Below the pieces are notes generated by a model that searched no databases, was not told the DNA's origin, and worked only from the letters and a program-made list of their open reading frames with translations. Positions 7,100 to 23,301 of a DNA stretch of 64,000 nucleotides are shown here, piece by piece. The translations under genes and the position numbers were made by a program. Source of the stretch: Sphingobium sp. 66-54 (GTDB taxonomy: Bacteria; Pseudomonadota; Alphaproteobacteria; Sphingomonadales; Sphingomonadaceae); contig MKWI01000014.1 in assembly GCA_001899715.1 (NCBI GenBank), positions 62,001 through 126,000 of the forward strand. The letters are read 5' to 3'. Numbering within the stretch: the stretch's first letter is position 1; every line of letters starts with the position of its first letter.

Positions 7100-7127
7100 A
7101 TATTAACACGATAAATAATCTCGGCAA
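7100..7127 (-). promoter_or_regulatory. Shared-type promoter with operator, facing the MFS-CMD operon
   Basis: Read on the minus strand: -35 TTGCCG (7127-7122), 16 bp spacer, -10 TAATAT (7105-7100). The imperfect palindrome ATTTATC-GT-GTTAATA (7116-7101) fills the spacer and overlaps the -10, a position expected of a repressor site. The same architecture recurs at 7629, 12391, 17553 and 23273. Confidence 0.65.
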
Positions 7128-7628
7128 CAAAAATTTCCGCGAACGTGACCGGCGTCCAAAATCTGCGCCAATGCAGACCTTCTCGACTCACCGCGCTCCT
7201 GGCTCAACACAGTCTAAACCGGAAGTCCAATGGCCCACGTAGCCGTCCGATCCGATCGAACCACGGCGAGGAAGCCGAACGAAATGCGGCGATCATCCGA
7301 ACAGGGGTTTTCAACAGCCACAGCCTGAGCGTCGACGGGCAACGGGTAGAGGCCTAGCGGATATAGAGTCCACATAATTCCCGAGAATCTGAATAGTTAG
7401 GGCACCACTCAACCGCGAAGCTGCGATTAGCCGGTCGCCACCTTACCCACGCCGGAACAGGATCGCATAAAGGAAGGCGGCCTAACACTGCCAGGCGCTC
7501 GCCCGATCGGTGCGCCGGTTGTTCCGGCACCGGCTAACCAGGCGGCCGATCAAGACGCTCGCACATATTCCGTGATTGTTCCGAGGTCGGATCATCTTCC
7601 TACGGGCGATCCTCTCCAGAATTTTCTC

Positions 7629-7656
7629 TTGCCGATATTATTTATCGTGTTAACGT
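7629..7656 (+). promoter_or_regulatory. Shared-type promoter with operator, facing CMD3-CMD4
   Basis: On the plus strand: -35 TTGCCG (7629-7634), 16 bp spacer, weak -10 TAACGT (7651-7656), with palindrome ATTTATC-GT-GTTAACG at 7640-7655. From the -35 through the palindrome it closely matches the opposite-facing site at 7100-7127. Confidence 0.6.
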
Positions 7657-7941
7657 TTATTCGATTATTGAGTCGGCGTTATCATCCACGAGGCGCTGGT
7701 GTGGCCATGCCAGATCGACGACACCGGCCGCTGCCGCGGACCCGATCGCCTCAAGGCCTGACCGCCGCGCCAGCCCCGATGAAGACGAGCCGGGTCAGGC
7801 GAGATCCGCCGACTATGGAGAGGGCGATATGATTGACCGACCTGCCTTTCCCGGAAGCTCCCGTGCGCTTTCGGGCGACCGGTCCGAGGGCGCCCCATCC
7901 GCTATTCCAACTGTCTTTCTCAATTTTCGGGAGATGATCTG

Positions 7942-8820
7942 ATGACTTTCAAGAGTGAGGGGCTGGACCTCGACAGAATGGACGAGCTGTCCAAGGAAGA
8001 AGCGGAACAGAACCTGCTCCACGTCTGGAGCTGGCGCGGCCCGATGTATGAGTTGGGTGCGAACAGCCTGATGCTGGATTACGCAAAACCCCGCTTCACC
8101 AAGGCGCACCGCTGGGGCTCAGATTTTTACGGGCGGCCCGACAAGGTGAACATCATCCTACTCGGGATCCAGAATCTGGCCAGCTACATGATGCTCGGCT
8201 GGGAAACCGGCATTTTCAACCAGTTCAACCTTCAGCGCCGCAACGGCCTGCCCAAAGAACAGATCATGGAAGTGGTGATGTTCACCCAGCTCTATGCCGG
8301 TATGCGGGGCCTGGGCCATGTCTACCGCGCAATCGGCGACATGCTGCCGGCCTTTGGCGAACCGACGAGCGACCCGGCACCTTTCCCCGGCAACTGGACC
8401 GTCGATCCGGATGCGTTCAAATCCGGGCTGGACATGTCGACACGCGCATTCACCGAACAGGACCGCCGCGGCATCACCGACTGGTACGAAAAGAATATCG
8501 GCTACGTGCCTGACTCGATCACCTTCGGGCTGGAGGTGCATCCCGAGTTCGTCAAGATGAACCGGATGAAGTGGGAGTCCGCCATCGTGGCGTTGCCCAA
8601 GCAGGTCGCTCCCCATGTGATGATCCGGCTCAACATGATGTCCGGCAACGTCCAGGGGCTGCGCGAAGCCGTATTGCTGGGCCGAAACTGGGGCATGAGC
8701 CGGGAGCATGTCATCAACGGCATCAACGCCAGCGCGATGTATTTCACCGCGTTCGAGGGCCTGCACACGGCCGCCAAGGCCGTCCGGGACATTCTCCAGG
8801 ACTGGCCGGGCGAGGAGTGA
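7942..8820 (+). CDS. CMD-like protein, paralog 3 of 4
   Basis: A 292-residue paralog with the two-half CMD-like layout: N-G-L-P-K-E-Q-I-M-E-V-V-M-F-T-Q-L-Y in the first half and A-M-Y-F-T-A-F-E-G-L-H-T-A-A in the second. There is no CxxC pair. A good ribosome site (GGGAG) precedes ATG 7942. It is closest to paralog 4 (shared I-T-x-W-Y-E-x-N-I-G-Y-V-P-D-S-I and K-M-N-R-M-K-W-E), whereas paralogs 1 and 2 form the other pair. It starts a two-gene operon divergent from the MFS/CMD/HD operon and carries its own promoter-operator module. The family relation is clear; the reaction is unknown. Confidence 0.8.
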   Translation: MTFKSEGLDLDRMDELSKEEAEQNLLHVWSWRGPMYELGANSLMLDYAKPRFTKAHRWGSDFYGRPDKVNIILLGIQNLASYMMLGWETGIFNQFNLQRRNGLPKEQIMEVVMFTQLYAGMRGLGHVYRAIGDMLPAFGEPTSDPAPFPGNWTVDPDAFKSGLDMSTRAFTEQDRRGITDWYEKNIGYVPDSITFGLEVHPEFVKMNRMKWESAIVALPKQVAPHVMIRLNMMSGNVQGLREAVLLGRNWGMSREHVINGINASAMYFTAFEGLHTAAKAVRDILQDWPGEE

Positions 8821-8827
8821 CGCTGCG

Positions 8828-9706
8828 ATGACCAAGATCAGCGAGGGATTGGACCTCGATACGCTGGAGCAGATGTCGGCCGCCGAGCTTGAGCATAATC
8901 TGCTGCACGTGTGGGACTGGCGCGGCCCGCTCTACGAGATGGGCGCCAACAGCCTCATGCTGGACTATATGCCGCCGCAGTTCGCCAAGGCGCACCGCTG
9001 GGGATCGGACTTCTTCGGCCGCCCGGACCTGGAGAACATCGCCTTGCTGGGCGTAGGCACGCTCGCGGCCTATCTGGTGCTGGATTGGGAGACGGGTATC
9101 CTCAACCAGTTCCAGGTCCTGCGCCGCAACGGCATGTCCAAGCAGCAGATCATGGAAATCGTTATGTTCGTGCAACTCTATGGCGGCATGCGCCAGTTGG
9201 GGCACGTCTATCGAGCCGTGGGCGACATGCTGCCGACGTTCGCCGAACCGGCCAACCCGCCCGCCAAATTCCCCGCCAACTGGACGGTGGACCCCGAGGC
9301 GTTCAAAGCGGGGCTAGATCTGTCCACCCGCGACTTCACCGAGCAGGATCGCACCGCGATCACCGGCTGGTATGAGCGCAATATCGGCTATGTGCCGGAT
9401 TCGATCGCGGCGGGCCTCGAAATTGACCCGGTCTTCTTGAAAATGAACCGGATGAAATGGGAAAACGCCATCGTTACGCTACCCAAGCAGGTCGCGCCGC
9501 AGGTCATGATCCGCATCAACATGATCTCAGGCAATGTCGAGGGCCTGCGCGAATCGATCCTGCTTGCCCAGAACTGGGGCATCAGCCGGCAACATGTGGT
9601 GAACGGCATCTTTGCCGCCGCGATGTATTTCACCGCGTTCGAAGGTCTGCACACCGCCTCGCAGGCCGCGCGCGACATTCTGCGGGACTGGCCTTCCAAC
9701 GGCTGA
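8828..9706 (+). CDS. CMD-like protein, paralog 4 of 4
   Basis: A 292-residue paralog. The start at ATG 8828 is chosen because M-T-K-I-S-E-G-L-D-L-D aligns with the other three N-termini; longer frames upstream overlap paralog 3. It follows paralog 3 by 7 nt, so the two are co-transcribed and probably arose by tandem duplication. Conserved blocks are H-R-W-G-S-D-F-F-G-R-P, N-G-M-S-K-Q-Q-I-M-E-I-V-M-F and A-M-Y-F-T-A-F-E-G-L-H-T-A. Like its relatives it lacks the AhpD redox cysteines. It could form a hetero-oligomer with paralog 3. Confidence 0.8.
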   Translation: MTKISEGLDLDTLEQMSAAELEHNLLHVWDWRGPLYEMGANSLMLDYMPPQFAKAHRWGSDFFGRPDLENIALLGVGTLAAYLVLDWETGILNQFQVLRRNGMSKQQIMEIVMFVQLYGGMRQLGHVYRAVGDMLPTFAEPANPPAKFPANWTVDPEAFKAGLDLSTRDFTEQDRTAITGWYERNIGYVPDSIAAGLEIDPVFLKMNRMKWENAIVTLPKQVAPQVMIRINMISGNVEGLRESILLAQNWGISRQHVVNGIFAAAMYFTAFEGLHTASQAARDILRDWPSNG

Positions 9707-9932
9707 TGAAGGATAGGGGACGAGGGCAAGGCTGCGGCTGCCGACCAGCCTTTCCCCGTCACCGGCCAGCGCCTCGGGCCGCTTGAAGCGTAGCACGGCT
9801 CGTTCGCTCAATCTGATGGAGATGCGTCGGAAAGCCCGATTGCTCCAGACGAAAGGACGCATCTCTCCCGGTTGCGGTCGGCCTCTCAACAAAGGCCGCG
9901 GCCTCTTGCGGTGAGGACTGGCTGCATGCCAT

Positions 9933-11093
9933 TCAAACCAGTCCAAGGGTGTCGACTATGGCCCTGGCCACCTGGTGCGCGGTGCTCGGCGGCGGCTTCT
10001 CCGGAGTGACGATGGCGGTGTTGTAAACGAAATAATTCTTCGCAAAGCCGATGGCGAGGCGCCGCTCCGGATCGGCATAGCCGAATGAGCCGCCGCCGCC
10101 GACATGGCCGAACGCCCCCGGTGACGCGAGCGGTCCGGCATCCGCACCTAGGCGATACCCCAATCCGCGGCGGGTTCTGACGTGATAGATCTCGTCCATC
10201 TGGAAGCTCTGCAATGCGATGGCCTTGCGCACACGCGCCGCAGGGAGGATGCGCACGCCGTCGAGGGCGCCGAACCCGGCGAGCATGGCATAATGGCAGG
10301 CAAGGCCGCGCGCGCTGAACACACCACCCGACCCGGGAATGGAAGCCTGCAAGACCTCACGCCGGTTGAACACGGCAGCGACTTCACACCCGGCCGGCTC
10401 GCCGACCATTCCCGCTTGATAGGCTAGCGGAGCCGGTGGCGCATCGATGAGGACGGCAACACGATGCAGCGCATCATCAGGCACACCGAGATAGGCGCCG
10501 TCGATGCCGAGCGGCGCGCAGATTTCTTCCGCCAGGAACCGGCTGATCGGGCGGCCATCGATGCGGCGCAGGATCTCGCCGACGATGTATCCGAAGGTCA
10601 CGGAGTGGTACGCGGTGCATGTACCGGGAGGGAAGCGGGGTTCGAGATCGGCAATCCCCCGGCACATTCGGTCCCAGTCGGGCAACCAGTCCGGCGTGTA
10701 GCCCACGGGCGTCTGGGGTACGCCGGTCCGGTGGCAGAGCGCGTGACGCACCGTCGCCTGCCCCTTGCCGTGAGCCGCGAACGCGGGCCAGACTTTTGCG
10801 ATAGGCATATCGTAGCTGAGCTTGTGCCGTTCCATGCAGATGTGCATGCAGGTTGCCGCGATGCCCTTGGTCGTCGAGGACAGCATGAACAAGGTGTCGC
10901 CATCGACGGGCGTGCCTGTCGCGGGGTCCGCCATGCCGGCCCAGGCATCGACCACCAACGCGCCATCGAGATAGGCAGCCACCTGAAGGCCGACCTCCGG
11001 CGTCTGGCTTACCAACGTTTCGAGCACGGTTCGGACCCGCGCGCTGGCCTCACGGACATCGGACGTGCCGGACGCCATTCGACCGTCAACCAC
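9933..11093 (-). CDS. Serine hydrolase of the beta-lactamase/EstB family
   Basis: A 386-residue protein of the class C beta-lactamase-like hydrolases, many of which are esterases. The nucleophile motif S-T-T-K (SxxK) lies near residue 73, a Tyr motif Y-H-S near residue 163, and H-V-G-G-G-G near residue 335 replaces the KTG box. No clear signal peptide is present, so it is probably cytoplasmic. It starts at GTG 11093, overlapping the stop of the beta-propeller gene, or at ATG 11078 just after it. It is the second gene of a two-gene operon behind a putative lactonase, which fits hydrolysis of an ester or lactone intermediate in this catabolic block. Confidence 0.8.
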   Translation of the reverse strand: MVDGRMASGTSDVREASARVRTVLETLVSQTPEVGLQVAAYLDGALVVDAWAGMADPATGTPVDGDTLFMLSSTTKGIAATCMHICMERHKLSYDMPIAKVWPAFAAHGKGQATVRHALCHRTGVPQTPVGYTPDWLPDWDRMCRGIADLEPRFPPGTCTAYHSVTFGYIVGEILRRIDGRPISRFLAEEICAPLGIDGAYLGVPDDALHRVAVLIDAPPAPLAYQAGMVGEPAGCEVAAVFNRREVLQASIPGSGGVFSARGLACHYAMLAGFGALDGVRILPAARVRKAIALQSFQMDEIYHVRTRRGLGYRLGADAGPLASPGAFGHVGGGGSFGYADPERRLAIGFAKNYFVYNTAIVTPEKPPPSTAHQVARAIVDTLGLV

Positions 11094-12168
11094 CGAAGCC
11101 GTTCGGTCTGCGCAGATAACCGATCCGGTCTCCGTCGAAATTGCCGATCCAGAAATGATCGCCGGCCGTAATCACGGCACTCGGCGCTTGCAACGGCGCG
11201 TTCGGGCCCACAGTGGCGATCCGCTCAACCGCGAGCGTCGCAGGGTCGATCCTGATGATCGACCAGCCCGTTCCGCAATTGAGCCAGGGGCAGTTCGGGC
11301 CCGGCTCATGGTTTCTGCCGACCGTATAGAGCATGGCGTCGTCGCCCCAGTGGATATTGTCCGGATAGACTGGAAGGCTGACGGCCGTGCCGATCAGAGT
11401 CGGCGCGTTCCGGTCGAACCGGACGACCTCGTGCGTGCCCATGGCCGCGACATAGAGCCAGCGACCATCCGGCGACACTACGATACCGTTTGGGCCCGAC
11501 AATTCAGTGCCGGCAACAGGCTCCACGCTGCCGCTGGGGTGCCATTCATAAACGGCACCAGTGAGGCGCCCGTCAACGAGATGGGCGAACGCATCCGGGT
11601 TCATCGAATCCTTGGACTTGGTCGCCAGGAAGCCACCATCCTTGAGGATCGTAACAGCATTGCCCCACATCCTTTCCGGCAAGGGTACGCATCCAACCCA
11701 CGCAATCGTCGGCTTGGCGCCCTGCGCGTCGACCTCGAAAATCTCGATCGCTTCGCGACCGCCGTGACCGATCACATACAGGCGGAACCGGCTGGACGAG
11801 ACATGTTTGAGGGCAAGCCCGTGCGCGGAGAAATGGTCCGGATCAATCGGGCCAGGGCAGTCGGGGAACATCTGCCTGTCCTGCTCGAACGCGGGGCGGT
11901 GGCCCGGGAACAGAATCTCGAACGATCCGTCGAGGCGATTGACGAGATAAAGATGGCCGCGAGCACCCGGATCGCCCGTCCAGCTCGCCAGACCCGATGC
12001 CAGCAGCCATGGCCCATCGCCGAGTGGCACAAGGTCTTCCGCATTTTGCAACCCGACGATGGAACCGATCGCCTCCGGCACGGGCTCATAATCCCTGGCG
12101 GACACAAGGCTCATGCACAGCCCCCACATCAGAAGGGCCAGCACGATGAATAGTCTTATGGGCTGCAT
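11086..12168 (-). CDS. Secreted SMP-30/paraoxonase-like six-bladed beta-propeller (putative lactonase)
   Basis: A 360-residue protein with an N-terminal signal sequence (hydrophobic residues 5-20 ending S-A-R). The motifs L-S-G-P-N-G-I-V-V-S-P-D-G-R near residue 225 and P-D-N-I-H-W-G near residue 267 are typical of SMP-30/gluconolactonase and paraoxonase propellers, where Asn and Asp in these positions bind calcium. Members hydrolyse lactones or esters. Export suggests action in the periplasm. The ribosome site GGGAAGG precedes ATG 12168. It is the first gene of an operon with the serine hydrolase and sits behind the shared promoter-operator at 12391-12419. Confidence 0.7.
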   Translation of the reverse strand: MQPIRLFIVLALLMWGLCMSLVSARDYEPVPEAIGSIVGLQNAEDLVPLGDGPWLLASGLASWTGDPGARGHLYLVNRLDGSFEILFPGHRPAFEQDRQMFPDCPGPIDPDHFSAHGLALKHVSSSRFRLYVIGHGGREAIEIFEVDAQGAKPTIAWVGCVPLPERMWGNAVTILKDGGFLATKSKDSMNPDAFAHLVDGRLTGAVYEWHPSGSVEPVAGTELSGPNGIVVSPDGRWLYVAAMGTHEVVRFDRNAPTLIGTAVSLPVYPDNIHWGDDAMLYTVGRNHEPGPNCPWLNCGTGWSIIRIDPATLAVERIATVGPNAPLQAPSAVITAGDHFWIGNFDGDRIGYLRRPNGFGG

Positions 12169-12390
12169 AACGCCTTCCCATTCCCGAACGGCTCATATGC
12201 TCCGTTCCAATGGCCCCAAATGGAAGCGTTGGCACTCCCGCGTGCGGGCAGTTCACAAGGAGGTCCCGATGGATCAGGCGCAAGGACCATCCACAAAACT
12301 CCCTCCCTCTCCTACGATACCGAATGCCTCGTCATTGCTTGTTAGCCACGCTTTATCACCGCGTCCGCTACCAGCCGGCGTGATACAGTA

Positions 12391-12419
12391 ATATTAACGC
12401 GATAAATAATATGTGACAA
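12391..12419 (-). promoter_or_regulatory. Shared-type promoter with operator, facing the propeller/serine hydrolase operon
   Basis: On the minus strand: -35 TTGTCA (12419-12414), 17 bp spacer, -10 TAATAT (12396-12391), with palindrome ATTTATC-GC-GTTAATA at 12407-12392. It lies about 220 nt upstream of the ATG at 12168. Confidence 0.65.
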
Positions 12420-12641: not shown

Positions 12642-12657
12642 ATTTAACCTGTTAAAT
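12642..12657 (+). promoter_or_regulatory. Perfect operator palindrome upstream of the dehydrogenase gene
   Basis: ATTTAAC-CT-GTTAAAT is a perfect inverted repeat of 7-bp arms with a 2-bp centre and matches the operator consensus of the other five sites. It ends 33 nt before ATG 12691. A matching -35 is poor here, so the exact promoter is uncertain, but the placement suits repression of the 12691 gene. Confidence 0.6.
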
Positions 12658-12690: not shown

Positions 12691-13707
12691 ATGACCCGCA
12701 TCCAACTCACCGCAACGGCGCTCGATCGCCTTCGCCCGCGTCTCGATGTTCTGGCGCAGCCGCTCGACTATGTCGTGATGGACAAGTCGGGCGTGCTGCG
12801 TATCGATGGCCGGGAGGTAACGCCTGAAGAAGCCCGTCCCGACTGCGGCTTCGTCAGCAACGATTTGTTCTTCGCACCGTTCCAGATGGCCTATATCGAC
12901 GCGCTGGTGGCATCGCCGGCGCTCGAATGGGTGCAGAGTTGCGGCGCCGGGCTCGATCATCCGATGTTCGTCAGCCTCGCCCGACGGGATGATATCCGTC
13001 TCACCACCAACCATTCGCAGGCCGTGGGCATAGCTGAATATGTGATGTGGGGTGTGCTCGATCATTTCCAGATCGGCGCTGCGCAACCGATCCAGCCGGC
13101 CGAACAGGACCCTTCCGGGTGGATACGCCGGCGCGCGCGAGAGATCGGGGGAACACGCTGGCTCATCCTCGGCTTCGGGGCGATCGGGCAGGCAGTCGCG
13201 CAGCGCGCAAAAGCGTTCGGGGCGCATGTGACCGGCGTTCGCCGCACCCCCGGCCCTTCGGCATTCGCGGATGCCGTTGTCCCGCCCGAAAGGATTTTCG
13301 ACATGCTCGGCGATAGCGACGTGGTCGTGCTCTGTATGCCGCAGACACCGGAAACCATAAACCTCGTCGATGCGCATTTTCTGGCCGCGATGAAGCCGAG
13401 CGCCATGCTGGTCAATGTCGGGCGCGGCGGTGCCATCGACGATGCGGCGCTCCTCGCCGCGCTCGACGCCGGCCAACCCGAGTACGCGTTGCTCGACGTT
13501 TTCCGTATCGAACCGCTGCCGGCCGATCATCCGTTCTGGAAGCACCCGCGCATCACCGTGACCGCGCATACCTCTGCGGTCACGACCGGATGGGACATGC
13601 GCCTCGATGACCTGGTCGTCGACAATATCAGCCGCTATCTCGCGGATGAGCCTTTGCGCAACGAGGTCCCTATATCCGATATCCTAAGGGGGCGGGCTGG
13701 CCCCTAG
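12691..13707 (+). CDS. D-2-hydroxyacid dehydrogenase (NAD-dependent)
   Basis: A 338-residue member of the D-isomer-specific 2-hydroxyacid dehydrogenases. The nucleotide loop G-F-G-A-I-G-Q is near residue 162. The catalytic set is visible: Arg in V-N-V-G-R-G-G, Glu in R-I-E-P-L-P and His in T-A-H-T-S. The family interconverts 2-oxoacids and D-2-hydroxyacids (glyoxylate/hydroxypyruvate reductases, among others). The ribosome site AGGGAG precedes ATG 12691. Its 3' end overlaps the convergent aldo/keto reductase gene by 4 nt. Its own operator palindrome places it in the same regulon, where it could reduce or produce a hydroxypyruvate-type intermediate. Confidence 0.85.
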   Translation: MTRIQLTATALDRLRPRLDVLAQPLDYVVMDKSGVLRIDGREVTPEEARPDCGFVSNDLFFAPFQMAYIDALVASPALEWVQSCGAGLDHPMFVSLARRDDIRLTTNHSQAVGIAEYVMWGVLDHFQIGAAQPIQPAEQDPSGWIRRRAREIGGTRWLILGFGAIGQAVAQRAKAFGAHVTGVRRTPGPSAFADAVVPPERIFDMLGDSDVVVLCMPQTPETINLVDAHFLAAMKPSAMLVNVGRGGAIDDAALLAALDAGQPEYALLDVFRIEPLPADHPFWKHPRITVTAHTSAVTTGWDMRLDDLVVDNISRYLADEPLRNEVPISDILRGRAGP

Positions 13708-14753
13708 GCGCCTCCCTCGCGCTCGCCGCGCCTGATCGCCGATTTGGCAATTCCGGACGGCAGATCATTGACCGGATCGAGCATCGTGCCCGGCGGGCAG
13801 AGCGCATCGATCCGGTCGAGCGTCTCCCCGGATAGCTTGAGATCGGCCCCGCCAAGCACGCTTTCGAGATGCTGCATGGTTCGCGGGCCGATGATCGCCG
13901 ATGTGATCGCTGGATGCTGAAGGACGAACGCCACGGCCATTTCCGCGATCCCGACGCCGATGTCCCCCGCTAGCTTCTCCAGTTCGCCGACGAGAGCGAT
14001 CTTGCGGCGGATATAGTCGGCGCGCGGATCGAACGCGCCGTGCGAGAAGCGCGCAAACCGCGCAATCCGGTTGTTCCCGGCAAAGTCCTCGGGGCCACGA
14101 TATTTTCCGGCGAGGAAACCTCCATCGAGCGGACTATAGGACAGCACGCCCATGCCGTAGCGCCGGCAAGCCGGCAGGACAAAGCGTTCGGCATCCCGGT
14201 TGAAGATGGAATAAGGCGGCTGCTCGGTGCGCAAGCGCATCGTTCCGCGCTTTTCGGCCACCCAATGGCTCTCGACGATCCGGTCTGCCGGCAGCGAAGA
14301 TGACCCGAACTGGCGGATCTTGCCCGCTCGCACCAGATCCGTGAGGGTGAAAAGCACTTCCTCGATGTCGGTGTCGATGTCGTAGCGGTGAAGCTGATAG
14401 AGGTCGATATAGTCGGTGCCCAGCCTGCGCAGGCTATCCTCGACCGCGCGCACGATCCAACGCCGGGAGGCGCCCCGCATATTGGGATCCGCGTCATCCA
14501 TGATGGAGTAGAACTTGGTCGCGATCACCAGTGAATCGCGCCGGCCCTTGATCGCCCTGCCGAGAATTTCTTCCACCTCTCCCCGCGAATAGACGTCCGC
14601 CGTGTCAATGAAGTTGATCCCGGCATCGAGTGCGCGGTGGACGATACGAACGCACGCGTCATGATCGGGATTGCCGACGGCACCGAACATCATACCGCCC
14701 AGGCAGAGCGGGCTTACCTTCATACCGGTGGCGCCCAGCGTGCGAGAGTCCAT
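13704..14753 (-). CDS. Aldo/keto reductase
   Basis: A 349-residue NADP-dependent oxidoreductase with the (alpha/beta)8 aldo/keto reductase fold. The catalytic tetrad is present: Asp and Tyr in F-I-D-T-A-D-V-Y, Lys in I-A-T-K-F-Y and His in Y-Q-L-H-R-Y. The C-terminal cofactor region I-I-G-P-R-T is typical of the YajO/Tas-like branch. A strong AGGAGG ribosome site precedes ATG 14753. It lies downstream of the TonB receptor gene on the same strand, separated by a probable terminator, so it may have its own promoter. The substrate is probably an aldehyde or ketone intermediate of the surrounding pathway. Confidence 0.85.
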   Translation of the reverse strand: MDSRTLGATGMKVSPLCLGGMMFGAVGNPDHDACVRIVHRALDAGINFIDTADVYSRGEVEEILGRAIKGRRDSLVIATKFYSIMDDADPNMRGASRRWIVRAVEDSLRRLGTDYIDLYQLHRYDIDTDIEEVLFTLTDLVRAGKIRQFGSSSLPADRIVESHWVAEKRGTMRLRTEQPPYSIFNRDAERFVLPACRRYGMGVLSYSPLDGGFLAGKYRGPEDFAGNNRIARFARFSHGAFDPRADYIRRKIALVGELEKLAGDIGVGIAEMAVAFVLQHPAITSAIIGPRTMQHLESVLGGADLKLSGETLDRIDALCPPGTMLDPVNDLPSGIAKSAIRRGEREGGA

Positions 14754-14826
14754 GTCGTTTTCCTCCTGTCGTCATGCGTGGCCGGGTGGAGAAAGCCGGT
14801 CAGGCGCCGCCCACCCCATATAGAAA

Positions 14827-14854
14827 GAGGCCGGATGTCATGGCATCCGGCCTC
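14827..14854 (-). terminator. Hairpin after the TonB receptor gene
   Basis: A perfect 11-bp stem (GAGGCCGGATG / CATCCGGCCTC) with a 6-nt loop lies 24 nt past the receptor stop codon. On the minus strand it is followed by a short TTTCTATAT stretch. This fits a Rho-independent terminator with a weak U-tract. Confidence 0.65.
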
Positions 14855-14878
14855 ACAAGGATGTTGGTCTCTACGTCT

Positions 14879-17419
14879 TCAGAAGTCGAAGCCGACGCTA
14901 AGCCCATAGGTCCGCGGCGGGAAATAGGAGGACAGGCGCACACCGCCGGCCGCGTTGATATAAGTAAGACTGGTGATAAAATCCTTGTTCGTCAGGTTCT
15001 TGACCCAGGCGGACAGGGACAAGCCAGCATCGTTACGATAGGTCAGTTGAGACCCTATGATCGTACGTGGCGGCGCGCTTTCTATGTCTTTCTTGAATTC
15101 GGTCAGATAGTTGCGGCTTTGATAGTTCAGGTCTCCGCTCCACGTCAGCGTCCCGTCAGCGGGCAGACCCACATTCCTGAATTCTACCGCCAGTTGCGCG
15201 GTGCCCGACCAGTCCGGTGCGCTCCGGGTGGGGTTCCCCTTCAGATCCCGGACCAGTTCCGACGCGGGAAGAGTCGTATTGAAGAGCCGGGGATCGGCCG
15301 GATCGATGGTATTGTATCGATCGAACCGGGAGTGCTGATAAACCAGCGTTCCGTTCAACTGGATTTTGACATTGTCGGATCTGTAGGGAACGGACTGCAA
15401 GCTCGCCTCGACACCGCTCGCCTTGGTCGCGGCGGCATTCTCAAGCAGCGTGATGAAGCCTGCGATCGGCCCCGGCATCGACCGCTGATACTGTGCACCC
15501 GAGAGCTTGTATGTATATGCGGACAAATTCAGTTGCAGCCGGTTGTCCACAAACGAACCCTTGAAACCGATTTCGTGGTTCTTGATCTTTTCCGGGCCCG
15601 CGATGTCAGTATTGCCCGGGACCATGAGGCCAGTACCGGCCTTGAAGCCCTGCGAATAGGTGTAATACAGCAGGTAGCCATCGGCAGGCCGCCATTCGAG
15701 GCCGATCTCCGGCGAAAAATCATCGAAGCTTGCGGTTTTGTGCCGATCCTCGGGCTTGAACCACGAGAAGCTCGTGATGTTTGCCGCCGTGGGGTTGGCA
15801 TCAAACCCGGGGCCGAGGCCGAAGCTGAAGAAGGGGTTGTAAACGTTGATCGACTGATCGCTGTAGCGCGCGCCGAGCTTCAAGGTGAACGGCGAAAGCG
15901 AATCGCCCAGCGCCCCGAGGTTGACGTTCGCATGGCCAAAGAGGCCGAACGCCTTGACCTTCTGCTGACCCCAACCGCAAATCTGCGCCGGATTGTCCGG
16001 CAGGCCCGGTTCGTCGAGGATCATACGGCCGATCCGCTTGCAGAAGCTCAGGACTTCGACGGGATCATAGCCATTCTGCACGAGATAATCGTGCGTGGCC
16101 GAGGTTCGAATATTGGAGAAATAGCCGTCAGACCCCAGGGTCTGGTTCTCGGTCTGCTTTTCCTTGAAATATGTTACGCCCAGAATGCCGTTGATCCATG
16201 GATTTTCGAACTTGAATTGCAGCTCGGTGCTCATCTGCGGTTCGTCACCGATCCTGCGGGTCAAAGGCGAGGTGTGCCGATACTCGAAAAACGAGCTGCT
16301 GGCCTGGTAGGACGATGTCCAGGAAACGATGCTCTGGATGTTGTTGATGCTGGTGATGGTCAACCAGTCATTGAGGTTCCAGTCGAACTGCGCCGTCGCC
16401 GACCAACGGTTCTTTCTCGTATAGGGATCGAGGGGGGCGGCCGTATCGCGCTTGTCCGCCGCGAAACCACCCAGGCCTTCCGGGACGACCGCAAACTGCC
16501 CAGTCGCCGGATCTATGATGGCGGCGTCCGTCGTTTGCAGGCCGGTAACGGGATCGATCCGCGAGCCGCCATGAAGCGTCAGCACGCCGGCGGCATCATC
16601 CTGATGATAATATTCACCGCTGAGGAAGATACTGAATTTGCTGGAGGGCTCGATGAGCACACTCAACCGGCCCATTTGCCGATGCTCGTTGTTGATCGGG
16701 CTGTTCGAAACGATGTTTCTACCGAAACCGTCTCGATTGAGCATGTTGAAAGCAACCCGGACCTTGAGCCAGTCGTTGATTGGGCCGCCCACTGCCGCAA
16801 AGAGCTGGTTTGAATTATAGTTGCCGTAGGAAAACTTCACGGATCCTTCGAGCACATCCGAAGGCTTGACCGTAATATAGTTGATCGCGCCACCGATGGC
16901 GTTACGGCCATAGAGCGTGCCTTGAGGGCCGCTCAGCACCTCCACGCGCTCCAGATCGAACAGCGAGGTCAGTTGCGCCTCCTGGCGCTCGATCGGCGCA
17001 CCGTCGGTATAGACCGCGACGCCACCCGAAGCGCCGGGATTCTGGACGTTTACACCGATCCCTCGAATATAGATCCGGGCGATATCGAACACCTCACCGA
17101 CGGTGAGGCTCGGAGCGAGCACCTGGAGATCCTTGACATCGTTGATGTTGGCGGTCTTGAGCTGCTCCCGCCCGTAAGCCGCGATCGATGTGCTGACGTC
17201 GTTAATTGCCTCCGCGCGCCGGTTCGCCGTGACGATGATTTCCTGCAACCCGTCACTCCGCCCAGCGGCGGATTCCTGTGACACTCCCTGCTCGGCAGCC
17301 TGCGCCATGGCAGTCGCCGGGATCATCGCCAACGCGACAACGGCATAGGCCGATACAGCACCGGCCGCACGGAAGGCGTTTGACGCCGACCTACCATTAG
17401 ATTGTAATCTGTTTAGCAT
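14879..17419 (-). CDS. TonB-dependent outer membrane receptor
   Basis: An 846-residue receptor with an N-terminal signal (A-L-A-M-I-P-A-T-A-M-A-Q-A). It has a TonB box-like E-I-I-V-T-A, the plug motif L-Y-G-R-N-A-I-G-G-A-I-N-Y and a C-terminal barrel ending Y-G-L-S-V-G-F-D-F, the aromatic end expected of outer membrane beta-barrels. ATG 17419 is preferred because GGGAGAGG lies 6-13 nt upstream; an ATG at 17452 would add 11 residues. The subclass resembles the sphingomonad receptors for non-siderophore substrates. A shared promoter-operator lies about 135 nt upstream. It probably imports the substrate of this catabolic region across the outer membrane. Confidence 0.9.
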   Translation of the reverse strand: MLNRLQSNGRSASNAFRAAGAVSAYAVVALAMIPATAMAQAAEQGVSQESAAGRSDGLQEIIVTANRRAEAINDVSTSIAAYGREQLKTANINDVKDLQVLAPSLTVGEVFDIARIYIRGIGVNVQNPGASGGVAVYTDGAPIERQEAQLTSLFDLERVEVLSGPQGTLYGRNAIGGAINYITVKPSDVLEGSVKFSYGNYNSNQLFAAVGGPINDWLKVRVAFNMLNRDGFGRNIVSNSPINNEHRQMGRLSVLIEPSSKFSIFLSGEYYHQDDAAGVLTLHGGSRIDPVTGLQTTDAAIIDPATGQFAVVPEGLGGFAADKRDTAAPLDPYTRKNRWSATAQFDWNLNDWLTITSINNIQSIVSWTSSYQASSSFFEYRHTSPLTRRIGDEPQMSTELQFKFENPWINGILGVTYFKEKQTENQTLGSDGYFSNIRTSATHDYLVQNGYDPVEVLSFCKRIGRMILDEPGLPDNPAQICGWGQQKVKAFGLFGHANVNLGALGDSLSPFTLKLGARYSDQSINVYNPFFSFGLGPGFDANPTAANITSFSWFKPEDRHKTASFDDFSPEIGLEWRPADGYLLYYTYSQGFKAGTGLMVPGNTDIAGPEKIKNHEIGFKGSFVDNRLQLNLSAYTYKLSGAQYQRSMPGPIAGFITLLENAAATKASGVEASLQSVPYRSDNVKIQLNGTLVYQHSRFDRYNTIDPADPRLFNTTLPASELVRDLKGNPTRSAPDWSGTAQLAVEFRNVGLPADGTLTWSGDLNYQSRNYLTEFKKDIESAPPRTIIGSQLTYRNDAGLSLSAWVKNLTNKDFITSLTYINAAGGVRLSSYFPPRTYGLSVGFDF

Positions 17420-17552
17420 TTCCAACCTCTCCCTACCGGATCTCTGTTTCATTAATTTGAAATTATCTTTTTGATTTTTATAGGAAAAAATAATTTTCTA
17501 TATCGTTTTCCAACCCGTCCTATTGGGAAAGGCTGTCTTATTCTGTCTTTAA

Positions 17553-17580
17553 ATATTAACACGATAAATATTTCTCGCAA
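17553..17580 (-). promoter_or_regulatory. Shared-type promoter with operator, facing the TonB receptor gene
   Basis: On the minus strand: -35 TTGCGA (17580-17575), 16 bp spacer, -10 TAATAT (17558-17553), with palindrome ATTTATC-GT-GTTAATA at 17569-17554. The rest of the 17453-17982 gap is AT-rich near the receptor and has no convincing gene. Confidence 0.65.
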
Positions 17581-17982
17581 GCAGAAATGATCGCGATGTC
17601 CACGCGCCGACGCCTGACCGATGCGCCGTGCGGCGCATGAAAGCCCGGACCGCCGCATATGGCATTCCAGTGCGAGAGCATCGGGCCAAAGCGGGTCTTC
17701 ATGATTTATGCGCCTGAGAAGAATTTGCGGATTTCGCGGGTAAGCGTGTGCCGACGCGCCGAACGGCGGAGCCTTCCCGAAAACGCCGCATCAAGGACTA
17801 TCGAGGCGCAGTCACTCCGCCGCCGTTCCGCGCGCCGGGTTCGCCTCACGCCGGCGCACGGCGATGCGACCGCCGCGTCTGCGTCGCTCGCGGCAGAATA
17901 CAGATGGATGTGCCGAACCGTTCGCCCGCATGCGACCGTCAAAGGCTGACGGACTCCCCGGTCGAGCGGAACGTGGGGCGCA

Positions 17983-19698
17983 TCACGCCAGCGCGGCGGA
18001 GATCGCCCTGAGCCAGACGGCAACCGCATGGGCGCCGGGATCCGGATAGCCCAGCACTCGGGCACCGACATAGGCGGACCGTCCGAGCCGGGGCGCCATC
18101 GCCTTGGTTGCCTCGGCCCCCTGCTCCGCCGCCATCACGGCCGCGCGCACGATCGCACGCGCATCGTCTCCCCGGCCGGCGGCTCGTTCGATGGCATCGG
18201 CGGCGGGCAGCAAGGCGTCGAGCATCGTGCGGTCGCCGGCCCTGGCGCCGCCCAGGGACTGCATTGCATCGCAGCCCGCGCGGAAGGCCGCGGCCCAGCC
18301 CGCCGAGCGGCCGGGATCCTCGGCCTCCGCGATGCGGGTCGCCAAGCGCAGCACGAAAACGGCGTAGAGCGGCCCGGACGTGCCGCCCAGCACGCGCCGC
18401 AGCATCGCCGAAATCGCATGCAGGGCTGCGGCGGGCCGATCCATGTCCAGACGTGGTATCAAATCCTCGATCGCGCGGGCACCTCGCGCCAGGCTGATGC
18501 CCAGATCGCCATCGCCCACGACCGCATCCAGCTCGGTCAGTTCCGGCTCAGCTTCCTTGAGCGCCGCAGAAGCCGCCGCGATCGCCTTGACGAATCGTGC
18601 CTTATCGTTCGGATCTCTCCAGCATGCGCCGAGCGCACTCGCTTCGACGATACCCTTCGATGGCGGCACTGCGCCAAGCGACGCGCCGGGTCTGGAGGGC
18701 GGCACCCAGGCAAGCGCGGCGCTGGGCGCGTGCAGCCGTTGGAGCCGCTGGTCGTCCAGCTTGAGCAGGGAAAGCGAAACGCCGGGCATTTCAAGGGCAG
18801 TCAGGAAACTGCCGACAAGCGCAGCTTCAGGACGAACTCCCGCGTCACGGAGCCGCTTGAGTGCATGGCGGGCGACAATACTTAACTCCTGAACGGCCGT
18901 GCCGCCAAGATTGTTGACGAGCAAGGCCACCCGATCAGCAGCGCCTATCCCGCTGCGCGAGATCAGCCGGTCCAGCAGTTGATCCAGCATCGCATCGGCC
19001 GGCTGAATGGGGCCGCGCCGCGCGCCGCTCTCGCCATGGATGCCCAATCCATATTCGACTTCATCCTCAGCCAGCTCGAAACCGCGCTTGCCCGCCGCCG
19101 GCACGATGCAGGCGCCCAGGCCAAGCCCCATGCTGAACAGCCCCGCGCCGGCTGCCTCCGCTTCGGCCTTGACCTGCGCGAGCGCAAGGCCCGCTTCGGC
19201 CGCGGCCCCCGCGATCTTGTGGACCAGCACCGTGCCGGCAATGCCGCGCCGGCCGACCGCACCCCCGTCATCGTCCAGCGCGACATCGTCACGCACGACC
19301 ACCATCTCGACCGCGATCCCGTCGGCACGGGCGATCTCGGCGGCAAGCCCGAAGTTGAGCCGGTCGCCCGTATAGTTCTTGATGATGAGGAGAACGCCCG
19401 CCGGCCCCGCGACCGCGCGGATCGCCGAGAGCACCGCGTCCACGCCGGGCGATGTAAAGACGGCGCCGATCACGGCGGCCGTCAACATCCCCACTCCCAC
19501 ATAGCCGGCATGAGCCGGTTCGTGCCCGGCCCCGCCACCGGAGATGATCGCTACCTTGCCGCCCTCGGCCAGAGCGCGATAGTCGCGCCGCAGCACGACA
19601 TTTTCCCCTTCGATGCGCGTGAGCCGCTCATCGGCCAGCAGCAGCCCCTCGATCATATCCTCGACGACCAGAAGCGGATTGTTGACGAGCTTCTTCAT
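17983..19698 (-). CDS. Dihydroxyacetone kinase-type protein, fused DhaK-DhaL
   Basis: A 571-residue ATP-dependent kinase. The N-terminal ~330 residues are DhaK: S-G-G-G-A-G-H-E-P-A-H-A-G-Y-V-G near residue 49, and G-L-G-I-H-G-E-S-G near residue 215 with the His that binds the substrate carbonyl covalently. The C-terminal ~190 residues are DhaL, with the Mg-ATP loop G-D-G-D-L-G. This single-chain form uses ATP rather than the PTS. Members phosphorylate dihydroxyacetone, glyceraldehyde or erythrulose. ATG 19698 follows AAAGGAAG. It is the last gene of the Rieske oxygenase operon, which suggests that the pathway releases a triose or tetrulose. Confidence 0.85.
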   Translation of the reverse strand: MKKLVNNPLLVVEDMIEGLLLADERLTRIEGENVVLRRDYRALAEGGKVAIISGGGAGHEPAHAGYVGVGMLTAAVIGAVFTSPGVDAVLSAIRAVAGPAGVLLIIKNYTGDRLNFGLAAEIARADGIAVEMVVVRDDVALDDDGGAVGRRGIAGTVLVHKIAGAAAEAGLALAQVKAEAEAAGAGLFSMGLGLGACIVPAAGKRGFELAEDEVEYGLGIHGESGARRGPIQPADAMLDQLLDRLISRSGIGAADRVALLVNNLGGTAVQELSIVARHALKRLRDAGVRPEAALVGSFLTALEMPGVSLSLLKLDDQRLQRLHAPSAALAWVPPSRPGASLGAVPPSKGIVEASALGACWRDPNDKARFVKAIAAASAALKEAEPELTELDAVVGDGDLGISLARGARAIEDLIPRLDMDRPAAALHAISAMLRRVLGGTSGPLYAVFVLRLATRIAEAEDPGRSAGWAAAFRAGCDAMQSLGGARAGDRTMLDALLPAADAIERAAGRGDDARAIVRAAVMAAEQGAEATKAMAPRLGRSAYVGARVLGYPDPGAHAVAVWLRAISAALA

Positions 19699-19808
19699 GG
19701 GTCTTCCTTTCGTCAGCCTGGGGTGTCTCGCCACATATGGCTCGCGCGGGCGAAGGTGCCGAACCGCCTTCTTTCGAGACCGGCCGGGAGCGGCGCCGCC
19801 ATATGGCC

Positions 19809-20747
19809 CTACCCTGGCCCGCGGCTCTCGATAATCCGCACCAGATCGGACAGCGTATCGCACACCGGCGTCGGCACGCCCCATCGCGCACCCTCCCGAC
19901 CGATCGCCCCGTTGATCGTCTCTATCTCGGTCGTCCGCCCGTGCCTGCGGTCTTGCAGCATCGAGGCCTCATGGTGGGCATGCTCGCGCAGCGCGGCGTC
20001 AATAGTCGAGCGGATACGTGCCCCGTCCAGCCGGATATCCCGCGCCGCCGCAACAGCAACGGCTTCGTCCACGACCCGGAATGCGATGCGCCGCCCGGGT
20101 TCATTGTCCATGCCGGCATTGGGTACTTCGCAGATCATCGCCATTGCGTTGAGCGCCGCGTTGAAAGCGACCTTTTCCCAGACGGCTGCGTTGACATCAT
20201 CGGCGACACGAGCGCCGAAACCGGCGCGCTGGAGCAGATCGGCGGCCGCCGGTGCATGATCGCGCCCGCCCGGCGCGAAACCGCCCAGTTCGACGAAACC
20301 GAAGCCATGGGTCGTGACCGACGCGGCACCGGAAAGATCAGCCGGCACATGCGCCGTCCCGATGAGCACGCGGTCCGCGCCAAAGCTCGCGGCGAGCAAC
20401 TCGGCATTGCCGATGCCATTCTGCAAGGTGAGTGCAACCGGCGCCGCGCCGGCAAGATGAGCGACGGATCGGATCGCCGCCGCGCTATGCACGCCCTTGG
20501 TGAACAGCAACAGCAAGTCGACGGGCGGCGTCGCCTTCGCGGCTGTGGCAACAGCGACACGGACCGGCCGTGCGCCGCCATCATCGGTCAGCATGATGCC
20601 GTCACGGGCGATCGCGGCCAGCCTCACCTCGTCCACATCGACCAGCGTAACAAGGCTGCCCTGTTCGGCGAGCCGGGCCGCGAACAGACATCCCATCGCG
20701 CCGGCCCCGATAATTGTGACGTGCGGTTGCAGAGAGCCAAGTGCCAT
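19809..20747 (-). CDS. Ketopantoate reductase (PanE/ApbA) family protein
   Basis: A 312-residue NADPH-dependent reductase. The Rossmann loop I-I-G-A-G-A-M-G-C is near residue 11, followed by the N-terminal domain motif T-L-Q-N-G-I-G-N and a lysine in W-E-K-V-A-F-N-A-A-L-N. True ketopantoate reductases make pantoate, but many paralogs in catabolic operons act on other 2-oxoacids. AGGAGG precedes ATG 20747, 8 nt after the Rieske beta-subunit stop, so it is co-transcribed with the oxygenase genes. That context argues for a pathway enzyme rather than pantothenate synthesis. Confidence 0.8.
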   Translation of the reverse strand: MALGSLQPHVTIIGAGAMGCLFAARLAEQGSLVTLVDVDEVRLAAIARDGIMLTDDGGARPVRVAVATAAKATPPVDLLLLFTKGVHSAAAIRSVAHLAGAAPVALTLQNGIGNAELLAASFGADRVLIGTAHVPADLSGAASVTTHGFGFVELGGFAPGGRDHAPAAADLLQRAGFGARVADDVNAAVWEKVAFNAALNAMAMICEVPNAGMDNEPGRRIAFRVVDEAVAVAAARDIRLDGARIRSTIDAALREHAHHEASMLQDRRHGRTTEIETINGAIGREGARWGVPTPVCDTLSDLVRIIESRGPG

Positions 20748-20755
20748 CGTGCCTC

Positions 20756-21253
20756 CTAGATCCCGTAAACGTCGAGCATGGTCGGCACGACATCGTTCAT
20801 CAGCCTGATGACCTTGCGGGCAATCTTCCACTCCCCGTCGATCAGACGCAGGTCGTGCTCATAGCGGCCGAAATAAGCGTGCGTGCGGTTGATCCGCACA
20901 TGCTGCACATTGACGATGAACGAGGAATCCAGGCGAATGGTCGCATCGTCCACCTGCTCGCTCAGCACATTGCCGATCATGTGGGCGACACGGGGCATCT
21001 CGTTCGACGCAACGGAAAAGCCGGAGCGGATGCGCTTGACGCGATCCTCAAGATTGCGCCGCCCCCGATAATAGATCAGCGACAACTCGCTATCGGGGTC
21101 CTCCGTCTGGGTGCCATCATCCCGCCACGCCGGCATCCAGAACACGCAATCGTTGGTGTAGAGGGCGAGCCAGGGATCGAAATCCAGGCGATCCAGCAGC
21201 AACGCCTCCCGATAGAGAAAGGCGGCCGCCTCGGTGGGGCCCAGCGCCGTCAT
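20756..21253 (-). CDS. Aromatic-ring-hydroxylating dioxygenase beta subunit
   Basis: A 165-residue protein with the SnoaL/NTF2-like fold of ring-hydroxylating oxygenase small subunits. Visible features are F-L-Y-R-E-A-L-L-L-D near the start, W-L-A-L-Y-T-N-D-C-V-F-W-M-P, and a conserved C-terminal G-E-W-K-I-A-R-K-V-I. The subunit supports the alpha3beta3 hexamer and has no metal centre. ATG 21253 overlaps the alpha-subunit stop by 4 nt and is preferred over an upstream start at 21283. Confidence 0.9.
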   Translation of the reverse strand: MTALGPTEAAAFLYREALLLDRLDFDPWLALYTNDCVFWMPAWRDDGTQTEDPDSELSLIYYRGRRNLEDRVKRIRSGFSVASNEMPRVAHMIGNVLSEQVDDATIRLDSSFIVNVQHVRINRTHAYFGRYEHDLRLIDGEWKIARKVIRLMNDVVPTMLDVYGI

Positions 21254-22593
21254 GCCAGCACCTCCGCCATTCGGGTAGCCCACGCGCGGTAATAGCCTGC
21301 GAACAGGCTTTCATCGCAGAGCTGCGCATCAGCGACGACACTGCGCACGGGCTTGAGGTCGATCATGTCGGCATAGCTGTTGCCGCCCTCGACCGAAGCC
21401 ATCAGGCCACGCGCATGGCCTTGCAGCCAGGGCCGCTCCTGCTCCGCCATGCCGAGCTGCGCTTCTTCGTAGCATACCGTGTCGTCCGGCGTCGCCATCC
21501 CGGTCGGATTGAAGAAATCCTCATACTGGCGGATGCGGAACGTCCGCGCCTCGGCGCTCTCATTTCTGGGGGCGATGCACCAGGTCTGCATTTCCGTTAG
21601 ATCAGGCGCGAGCGGCCGGATAACCCGCAACTGGCTCGACGCGTTTTCTGCGATCTGCATGTTCGGAAAAACCGTCAGGTTGCGCATGTTGAACATCCAG
21701 TTGCGCCTGGCTTCGCCGAACGCACGCGCGAGTTGCTCGGCGCGCTCGAAATCCGCGTTGGCGGACGATACCGGCATCACGCCCCAGTTGAGCACATGGC
21801 CATGATCGAAAGTCATGGTCCCGCCACTGACGCCTTGCGCCGTCTCTTGCCAGAAGTCGGCGGCGCCGATGGAGGACCGCACGACCTCCCGCGTCTCCTC
21901 GCTCGCGCGCTGTTCGAGAATGCGGATGTAGCTCGGATGCGTGGACGTGAAATGATACTGGTCCGCGCAGTTTTCGAGCTGCATCTTCCAGTTCGCCTCA
22001 TAGGTGAAGCAGACCCGGCCGGGGACCAGCTCCAGCCCATCCGGGCTCTTGTCGGCAAGCAGATCGAGCAGCTTGCGCGCTTCGCCGAGGTGGTCCTCCA
22101 GGCTCGGCACATCCGCATTCAGGCTGGCGAACAGGAAGCCACGATATTCGCCGAAGCGGGCGACAGCGGCGAGATCGTGATTCTCGGCGTCGAAAGCTTC
22201 GCTGTAGCAACCGCTTTTCTGCCATTTGATGTTGCGGTTTGCGCCGGCGCTGTCGAACGTCCAGCCGTGATAGGGACAGGTATGGCGGCGCGCATTGCCG
22301 CAAAGCTTGCGCACAAGGCGCACGCCCTTGTGCGGGCAGGCATTGACGAAACATTGCAGCGTGTTGTCGCCGTTGCGGCTGACGATGATGGGCACACGGC
22401 CGATGAAGCCGGTGAAATAATCATGGGGCCGTTCAGCCTGGGTCGAGAGGCCGACGAATACCCAGCCGCCTTCGAACACATGCTTCATTTCAAGCTCGAA
22501 CAAGGCGGGATCGCGGAACAAGGCGCGATTGACGCGGAAGACGCCGTCCATCGGGCGATCATCGACGAGGTCGCGCAATATGAATGGTTTCAT
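21250..22593 (-). CDS. Aromatic-ring-hydroxylating (Rieske) dioxygenase alpha subunit
   Basis: A 447-residue catalytic subunit. The Rieske [2Fe-2S] ligands are C86-x-H88 and C106-x2-H109 with the usual 17-residue gap. The mononuclear iron site is H214 and H219, with bridging D211, in E-N-C-A-D-Q-Y-H-F-T-S-T-H; a further Asp near residue 390 is probably the third ligand. The enzyme would add O2 to an aromatic ring or demethylate it, using electrons from a ferredoxin and reductase that are not encoded nearby. It is encoded directly upstream of its beta subunit, in the operon controlled from 23273-23301. The gap 22594-22783 holds nothing I recognise. Confidence 0.92.
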   Translation of the reverse strand: MKPFILRDLVDDRPMDGVFRVNRALFRDPALFELEMKHVFEGGWVFVGLSTQAERPHDYFTGFIGRVPIIVSRNGDNTLQCFVNACPHKGVRLVRKLCGNARRHTCPYHGWTFDSAGANRNIKWQKSGCYSEAFDAENHDLAAVARFGEYRGFLFASLNADVPSLEDHLGEARKLLDLLADKSPDGLELVPGRVCFTYEANWKMQLENCADQYHFTSTHPSYIRILEQRASEETREVVRSSIGAADFWQETAQGVSGGTMTFDHGHVLNWGVMPVSSANADFERAEQLARAFGEARRNWMFNMRNLTVFPNMQIAENASSQLRVIRPLAPDLTEMQTWCIAPRNESAEARTFRIRQYEDFFNPTGMATPDDTVCYEEAQLGMAEQERPWLQGHARGLMASVEGGNSYADMIDLKPVRSVVADAQLCDESLFAGYYRAWATRMAEVLA

Positions 22594-22783
22594 AGGTCCT
22601 GCCTCACAACAAAAAGACGCAACGATCCGGGCGGCGATTGCCGCATCATTACCGTGGACGCGAACGTGGATCGCCGAGCGGCTCTATGCTTGATCCGAGC
22701 CTCGGAGATATTCATGGGCGGTCGGCACTTCAGACCCCGAGAGCGGTTCTTCACCCGGTGTCAGTCAGCGCCCGGCAACCTCG

Positions 22784-23092
22784 CTACATGCTGCTGTCGA
22801 CTGAATAGTGGATCAGCGTCGGTGCCACCTGCGCGAAGTTTTGCAAATCTCCGGCAACCGCCTGTCCTTCTGCCGAGCCCATCGCGGCGCCGACAGCGGC
22901 ACCATCGGCAAAATCCGCCTCGAACACGCAGAAATAGGGAGATTCGCCCCCACCTCCCTGCACGTCGAAGCTGTATCGCAGCGCCAGCAGACCGGGCAAC
23001 TTGCGGGCAAGCGGTATGTGAGTCGCAACATAATAGGCCTTGAAGGCGGCGGGGTCCGGTTGCGGCGGATAAAGTACGACGATTTTATGCAA
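22784..23092 (-). CDS. EthD-like small protein
   Basis: The product has about 102 residues if translated from TTG 23092, which has GGAGAGG upstream. The N-terminus K-I-V-V-L-Y-P-P-Q-P-D-P-A-A-F-K-A-Y-Y and the following H-I-P-L-A-R-K-L-P-G-L match the EthD/dimeric alpha-beta barrel family. An in-frame ATG at 23191 would add 33 residues that do not resemble the family. EthD was found with the ethyl tert-butyl ether degradation cytochrome P450, and relatives accompany many oxygenase operons, sometimes as decarboxylases or cyclases. It is the first gene of the Rieske operon. Confidence 0.75.
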   Translation of the reverse strand: MHKIVVLYPPQPDPAAFKAYYVATHIPLARKLPGLLALRYSFDVQGGGGESPYFCVFEADFADGAAVGAAMGSAEGQAVAGDLQNFAQVAPTLIHYSVDSSM

Positions 23093-23272
23093 GGTTATGT
23101 CCTCTCCAGTCCAGCTAATCACACTCGTGCATGGCAAACCGCGCATGACAGATCCGTTTGGCACCCGCGCATACCCGGCCCACCGACCCAAATGGTTTCC
23201 AGCGTTCGCACGCCGTCGGTACGGACCGACCGCATGAGCAAACTAGCCAGCCGCTCCGGTCGATCCATCTAA

Positions 23273-23301
23273 CATTTAACGTGATAAATATTATGGGGCA
23301 A
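23273..23301 (-). promoter_or_regulatory. Shared-type promoter with operator, facing the EthD-Rieske-DhaKL operon
   Basis: On the minus strand: -35 TTGCCC (23301-23296), 17 bp spacer, -10 TAAATG (23278-23273), with palindrome ATTTATC-AC-GTTAAAT at 23289-23274. This is the last copy of the module seen. No gene is supported in the flanking 23302-23575. Confidence 0.6.

Follow-up and report, generated by a model that had tools for sequence, protein, structure and literature searches.

Predicted operators of an HpaR-like MarR regulator at the promoters of a catabolic block in Sphingobium sp. 66-54

In Sphingobium sp. 66-54, a run of catabolic operons is preceded by similar palindromes, which raises the question of which promoters they join and which protein reads them. 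The stretch of DNA analysed (64 kb, hereafter the window) corresponds to C14:62001-126000 in a 4.0-Mb, 38-contig genome, C14 being contig MKWI01000014.1. Judged from sequence, the palindromes are likely operators of the HpaR-like MarR regulator encoded by marR1, predicted to act as the common repressor of these operons. The original prediction had a single promoter-operator module uniting a 23-kb block, with no regulator gene in that block and a regulator acting from elsewhere. The module was recovered; the block proved incomplete, with at least 11 sites including one on another contig (C27), and marR1 was found within the array itself, where the earlier reader had missed it because the window edge cut it off.

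Eleven sites and an HpaR-like gene among them

All six 16-mers of the window were located at the originally predicted positions (Table 1). A degenerate 18-mer with up to three mismatches gave 12 strand matches in the 64-kb window, all from six places, while 100 shuffles of the window gave a mean of 0.18 and a maximum of 2 matches. The six palindromes are real and well above chance frequency, and the operator consensus of this genome is ATTTATCRYGTTAAT. A weight matrix was built from the ten C14 sites, whose own scores are high by construction. At 13 bits or more it had no matches in the window past 23.3 kb, where the original prediction had also seen no copy, and none in five control stretches of the same genome (100 kb) or in C14:25001-43000.

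Across the whole genome, TTAACVYGWTAAATW occurred without mismatch in eight places, all on C14 between 55233 and 85290. Allowing one or two mismatches added the palindromic sites C14:59310, C14:61242 and C27:27038, giving 11 sites in total, ten across 30 kb of C14 and one, with the same core, on C27. Off this array there were nine two-mismatch matches, against 12 (7 + 5) for the reversed control pattern, so no regulon members are claimed outside C14 and C27. A similar density of the 16-mer in unrelated places, which the original prediction had named as counting against it, was therefore not what the scan gave. Among 298 genomes of the family, this one had 9 strict matches, every other had at most 4, and 275 had none.

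The marR1 gene, whose GTG start was chosen from the HpaR alignment, encodes a protein that scored 54.8 bits with PF01047 (cut-off 24.6) and thus carries a MarR winged-helix domain. Its best NCBIfam model was HpaR (TIGR02337). Genome-wide, two proteins stood out with the HpaR model, marR2 (114.8 bits) and marR1 (114.2 bits), the third scoring 42.9 bits. The original prediction had advised looking for a conserved regulator near further sites or in syntenic clusters; marR1 lies inside the array and its homologues lie beside sites in relatives. The sequence TRI(L/I) was present in 27 of 27 aligned regulators, in a stretch that we take from MarR folds to be the recognition helix. The marR2 gene, on C27, encodes a protein 50% identical to that of marR1, and 67 bp separate the end of its match from the C27 12-mer; its product probably reads the same operator. 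In this region (L028, C27:18001-38000), the site lies between marR2 and a gene for a TauD-type dioxygenase, with LigA/LigB-type ring-cleavage genes across marR2 and another TonB receptor beyond TauD. By its gene content, C27 is a second predicted catabolic locus with the same operator.

Promoter geometry and proposed control

In five of the six window sites, TTG starts 11 or 12 bp 5' of the 16-mer, which leaves a spacer of 16-17 bp to TAANNN within the palindrome. The original description of five sites lying between a TTGNNN -35 and a TAATAT-like -10 thus held for the TTG and the spacing. The -10 is TAATAT at 7101, 12392 and 17554; the description is generous for TAACGT (7640) and TAAATG (23274). 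The sixth site (12642), which had been implied to stand outside the module, has no TTG in that place. Among all 11 sites, 8 had TTG at 16-18 bp from TAANNN (chance 0.037 each, p = 6e-10); three of these belong to the five sites outside the window, two of them at 18 bp, beyond the range first described. Counting symmetric sites both ways, 24 of 51 oriented sites from this genome and related loci had TTG at module spacing. In all eight asymmetric sites of this genome, TTATC points towards the -35 and GTTAA towards the -10, which GTTAA overlaps, as expected if the inner half doubles as the -10 hexamer.

The position of the operator suggests repression, in agreement with the original argument from overlap with the core promoter. 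A MarR dimer bound to the operator would cover the spacer and the -10 and so keep RNA polymerase off, and a compound of the pathway would make the dimer let go. On release, the receptor, the carrier, the Rieske dioxygenase, alcohol and aldehyde oxidation, and three- and four-carbon handling would come on together. We infer both the steric repression and the release from the HpaR-like spacing, the promoter geometry, the half-site orientation and the TRI(L/I) stretch.

An AGAATC-like element was seen a few bases 5' of the -35 in many module promoters, for example at window 7618-7623 and, in L027, before site 15380. GAAT occurred upstream of the -35 in 9 of 24 module promoters and in 2 of 8 from this genome, against a background of 0.019, as tested on the same sequences where it was first spotted. 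Leaders of 223-357 bp separate some operators from the chosen start codons (window 6744-7100, 7656-7941 and 12169-12391; C14:58043-58379). A riboswitch in the long leaders was considered and rejected, as Rfam at gathering score gave no match in window 1-31000.

Regulator and operator in related genomes

In the family survey, at least 7 of the 298 genomes had a marR1 homologue (E<=1e-15); the true number may be higher, since no more than 13 candidates were scored per genome. Two or more strict matches were found in 3 of the 7 genomes with a homologue and in 3 of the 291 without one (Fisher p = 1.6e-4). In the genus survey (94 genomes), homologues (E<=1e-25) were found in 11 genomes, at 20 loci, and the exact 12-mer TTATCRYGTTAA in 19 genomes, with 38 matches. 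All 11 regulator-bearing genomes carried the 12-mer, against 8 of the 83 without the regulator (p = 1.1e-9), one of the 11 being the genome from which the motif was taken; the p-values overstate independence because the genomes are related. At 14 of the 20 regulator loci, the 12-mer lay within 100 bp of the gene, twelve times 50-75 bp behind it in the same orientation and twice upstream in divergent arrangement. Eight 12-mer stretches from regulator-free genomes (6-10 kb each) contained no homologue of 33 query proteins (E<=1e-12, >40% coverage). Among distant 12-mer stretches in regulator-bearing genomes, 5 of 8 had query homologues, with only 25-37% identity outside the regulators. A regulator search in named genomes gave five remote matches.

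The order marR1 homologue (71-78% identity), site, EthD and Rieske genes was found in G270, G076, G326 and G352; in G351 the short locus stops after regulator, site and EthD, and in G355 and G366 the regulator and site are followed by Rieske genes with no EthD match. Across the EthD/Rieske promoters of eight genomes (window 23274 and these seven), the invariant positions were TTG 12 bases upstream, AT before the operator, TTATCA-N-GTTAA and two more T positions, while most flanking bases vary. Six GMC promoters in five genomes kept TATTAAC-NN-GTNAA. Sites of 16 bits or more near regulators numbered 6, 5 and 6 per 40 kb in G270, G076 and G220, respectively, and 2 per 12 kb in G277, with shuffle means of 0.03-0.10. 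Control stretches of G270, G076 and G220 had 0 in 35 kb, 1 in 80 kb and 0 in 80 kb, respectively; the single G076 site was in L091, which adjoins the G076 cluster. The same L091 has a weaker site (13.1 bits), immediately followed by the match of a DhaKL homologue (57%). A homologue of ALDH (64%) on contig C2 has an upstream site, in a stretch fetched for that site. In many of the sites in relatives the outer bases AC..GT replace AT..AT (L079-L085 and L172; G270, G076, G220, G277 and G326), and these are perhaps paralogue-specific operators.

Several observations weigh against control of the array by marR1. Its product, at 112.7-114.2 bits, falls under the HpaR equivalog cut-off of 121.2. Three of the 11 sites (55233, 61242 and 12642) lack TTG at module distance; by eye, TTGGAA-17-TATTAT is a possible alternative at 55233, and the other two have none. 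GMC promoters have TTG at that distance in this genome only. The exact 12-mer is absent within 100 bp at 6 of the 20 genus regulator loci, and no site reaches 16 bits at the loci of three remoter homologues, in G253, in G175 and, at 41% identity, in G220. Nor is the 12-mer in itself over-represented: about 49 of the 94 genus genomes, 2 of the 11 with the regulator among them, contain its reversed control. Upstream of marR1, the GMC-facing site is the only good one, and since the next best match has 6.3 bits, self-control of marR1 is not supported.

The nearly equal HpaR-model scores of the two paralogues, the C14 core carried by the site beside marR2, and the presence of up to four HpaR-like homologues in relatives would fit a different assignment, in which marR2 alone or both paralogues jointly are the main reader of the C14 operators and marR1 a minor one. 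We consider this rather unlikely, because marR1 sits among the ten C14 sites, and in seven genomes its closer homologues (67-78% identity) are found next to the same site, ahead of EthD/Rieske genes. Activation in place of repression appears improbable. In Yersinia, HpaR binds far upstream of one target and activates it (PMC7180172). The AGAATC-like element 5' of 9 of 24 module -35 boxes could likewise be an activator site. Against this, the spacer between -35 and -10 is taken up by the operator, which also overlaps the -10, and the spacers are of normal length (16-18 bp). Activation of the MerR kind works on long spacers. Least probable of all is that the MarR genes are chance neighbours and that an unrelated regulator reads the motif, such as the LysR protein encoded in the same island (C14:51984-52931) or one elsewhere. 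The 12-mer co-occurs with the MarR gene in 11 of 11 against 8 of 83 genomes and adjoins it at 14 of 20 loci, whereas LysR gave, beyond its own locus (L138), only one 31% match among the relative loci scanned with it. Control of the IclR/PheR type was rejected, the PheR core GCAACG being different (PMC13273656).

Repression by the marR1 product would be of a known kind: MarR repressors whose operators overlie the promoter are no new mechanism. HpaR is the repressor of 4-hydroxyphenylacetate catabolism in E. coli W and Yersinia, with sites of the form TTAA-XXXX-TTAA, one of which has its centre at -8, over the -10 (PMC7180172). Like HpaR, the regulator proposed here is a MarR protein, and its predicted operators resemble the HpaR site in half-sites and spacing: TTAA-N4-TTAA occurs exactly in 2 of the 11 sites, with one mismatch in 8 and with two in 1. 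The difference is that the predicted targets here are another gene set at 11 or more promoters and that in most operators one half reads TTATC. DesR of Sphingobium sp. SYK-6 is a MarR repressor of aromatic catabolism that is released by vanillate and syringate, and one of its repeats overlaps the -35 (PMC6888825). This likeness to another sphingomonad repressor does not extend to the operator, GTTTGTGTCACATAC-like as opposed to ATTTATCRYGTTAAT, or to the three targets desB, ligM and desR given there. The MarR-like Saro_0803 of Novosphingobium aromaticivorans is released by resveratrol and has an A/T-rich repeat overlapping the predicted -10; the operator at the nov1 promoter, GCAATA-N6-TATTGC, is different (PMC10046596). 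In addition, marR1 scored 37.6 bits against a cut-off of 200 for the corresponding model NF053777. DesR and Saro_0803 are the nearest sphingomonad cases found, both with other operators. Among the matches listed in the open-licence literature, no published description of the cluster, regulon, regulator or operator was found, judging by titles and the opening of abstracts; six forms of the 12-mer turned up there in three papers, none of which, from title and abstract, deals with a regulon of this kind.

Gene content and position of the block

Table 1. Predicted operators, promoter elements and genes. Plain numbers are window positions; C14 and C27 mark contig positions. The nearest downstream gene sets the direction that a site faces.
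Feature	Position	Strand	Remarks
Operator 1, 16-mer	7101..7116	-	faces MFS operon; 27.2 bits
-35-like TTGCCG, operator-1 promoter	7122..7127	-	spacer 16
-10-like TAATAT	7100..7105	-	overlaps operator 1
Operator 2	7640..7655	+	faces CMD-like 3-4 genes; 22.1 bits
-35-like TTGCCG, operator-2 promoter	7629..7634	+	spacer 16; TAACGT as -10 at 7651-7656
Operator 3	12392..12407	-	faces SMP-30-like and beta-lactamase-fold genes; 26.2 bits
-35-like TTGTCA, operator-3 promoter	12414..12419	-	spacer 17; TAATAT as -10 at 12391-12396
Operator 4, near-perfect palindrome	12642..12657	+	before D-2-hydroxyacid dehydrogenase; no TTG -35 found
Operator 5	17554..17569	-	faces TonB-dependent receptor; 27.2 bits
-35-like TTGCGA, operator-5 promoter	17575..17580	-	spacer 16; TAATAT as -10 at 17553-17558
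Operator 6	23274..23289	-	faces EthD-Rieske operon; conserved in seven other genomes
-35-like TTGCCC, operator-6 promoter	23296..23301	-	spacer 17; TAAATG as -10 at 23273-23278
Site	C14:55233		faces orf181
Site	C14:58382		faces ALDH-AKR1
Site	C14:59310		faces GMC oxidoreductase
Site	C14:61242		faces 2-oxo-tetronate isomerase, tartronate semialdehyde reductase and FMN dehydrogenase
Site	C27:27038		faces TauD-type dioxygenase
marR1, HpaR-like MarR gene	C14:58462-58911	-	between sites 58382 and 59310; 3.1 kb left of window edge
2-oxo-tetronate isomerase	C14:61326-62126		upstream of tartronate semialdehyde reductase
Tartronate semialdehyde reductase; FMN-dependent dehydrogenase	123-1013; 1135-2355	+	would be read from C14:61242
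MFS operon	2405..6743	-	MFS carrier 5457-6743; CMD-like 2 4534-5403; DUF7700 4034-4537; HD-domain 3390-4037; CMD-like 1 2405-3301
CMD-like 3; CMD-like 4	7942..9706	+	7942-8820; 8831-9706
SMP-30/gluconolactonase-like; beta-lactamase-fold	9933..12168	-	11086-12168; 9933-11093
D-2-hydroxyacid dehydrogenase	12691..13707	+
TonB-dependent receptor; aldo/keto reductase	13704..17452	-	14879-17452; 13704-14753
EthD operon	17983..23191	-	EthD 22784-23191; Rieske alpha 21250-22593; Rieske beta 20756-21283; ketopantoate-reductase-like 19809-20831; DhaKL 17983-19884

As shown in Table 1, the genes facing the window sites agree with those first described, which had omitted Rieske beta and the ketopantoate-reductase-like gene from the EthD operon and DUF7700 and the second CMD-like gene from the MFS operon. 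Rieske alpha was nearest to the benzoate dioxygenase model, below its cut-off, and the best solved relative of the GMC oxidoreductase was a chloramphenicol-inactivating oxidoreductase. The name hydroxypyruvate isomerase was rejected for C14:61326-62126 (343.9 against a cut-off of 353.45) in favour of 2-oxo-tetronate isomerase (355 against 325). Likewise, glyoxylate carboligase was rejected for the thiamine pyrophosphate enzyme next to LysR, as the NCBIfam model over its cut-off was benzoylformate decarboxylase. Among proteins scanned around the sites, none was named as belonging to the hpa-meta set; hpa genes were not searched genome-wide. The gene set suggests, as a guess, that the substrate is an aromatic compound whose side chain is hydroxylated.

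The four CMD-like paralogues are about 290 aa long and 56-74% identical to CMD-like 2. The CMD label itself is weak, with E about 0.05 and below cut-off in two of the four. An AlphaFold2 fold of CMD-like 2 from four sequences had a pLDDT of 47.7 and was not used. Homologues of the quartet occurred in 3 of 94 genus genomes including this one; in the other two, identity was 33-35% and marR1 had no match.

The claim that the motif defines the pathway genes held in part: two HpaR-like paralogues lie beside the same motif, and GlcDEF and the benzoylformate-decarboxylase-like gene of the island have no nearby site. A broader reading, towards which we lean slightly less than away from it, is that a portable repressible cassette (AGAATC-like element, TTGC -35, operator with its inner half as -10) was placed repeatedly before new genes. 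A core regulon of HpaR-like gene, EthD-Rieske, GMC and ALDH may then have been extended here by the near-private CMD-like quartet, by DUF7700 and HD genes and by one gene on a different contig, so that a single ligand would control a hitherto undescribed pathway for an aromatic compound bearing a polyol-like side chain. This proposal is weakened because GMC promoters do not keep TTG and because the case for DhaKL as part of the core comes from a weak site in a single relative.

With a candidate regulator and exact predicted sites, a 40-kb catabolic block in which many genes have no known role becomes one testable unit. The conserved operator helps to delimit the regulon in relatives whose genes are scattered, and the ligand of the regulator could point to the substrate of the block.

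The block is flanked by nrdA (C14:49947-51899) and nrdB (window 30455-31507), 40.5 kb apart. In the genus, nrdA was found in 31 of 31 genomes searched, with nrdB within 1.5 kb in 28 of 30 loci examined; the exceptions were this genome and G076, where the remaining 25 kb of contig showed no nrdB. Because the two genes lie so close together in these 28 loci, the block probably arose by insertion of about 40 kb between nrdA and nrdB.

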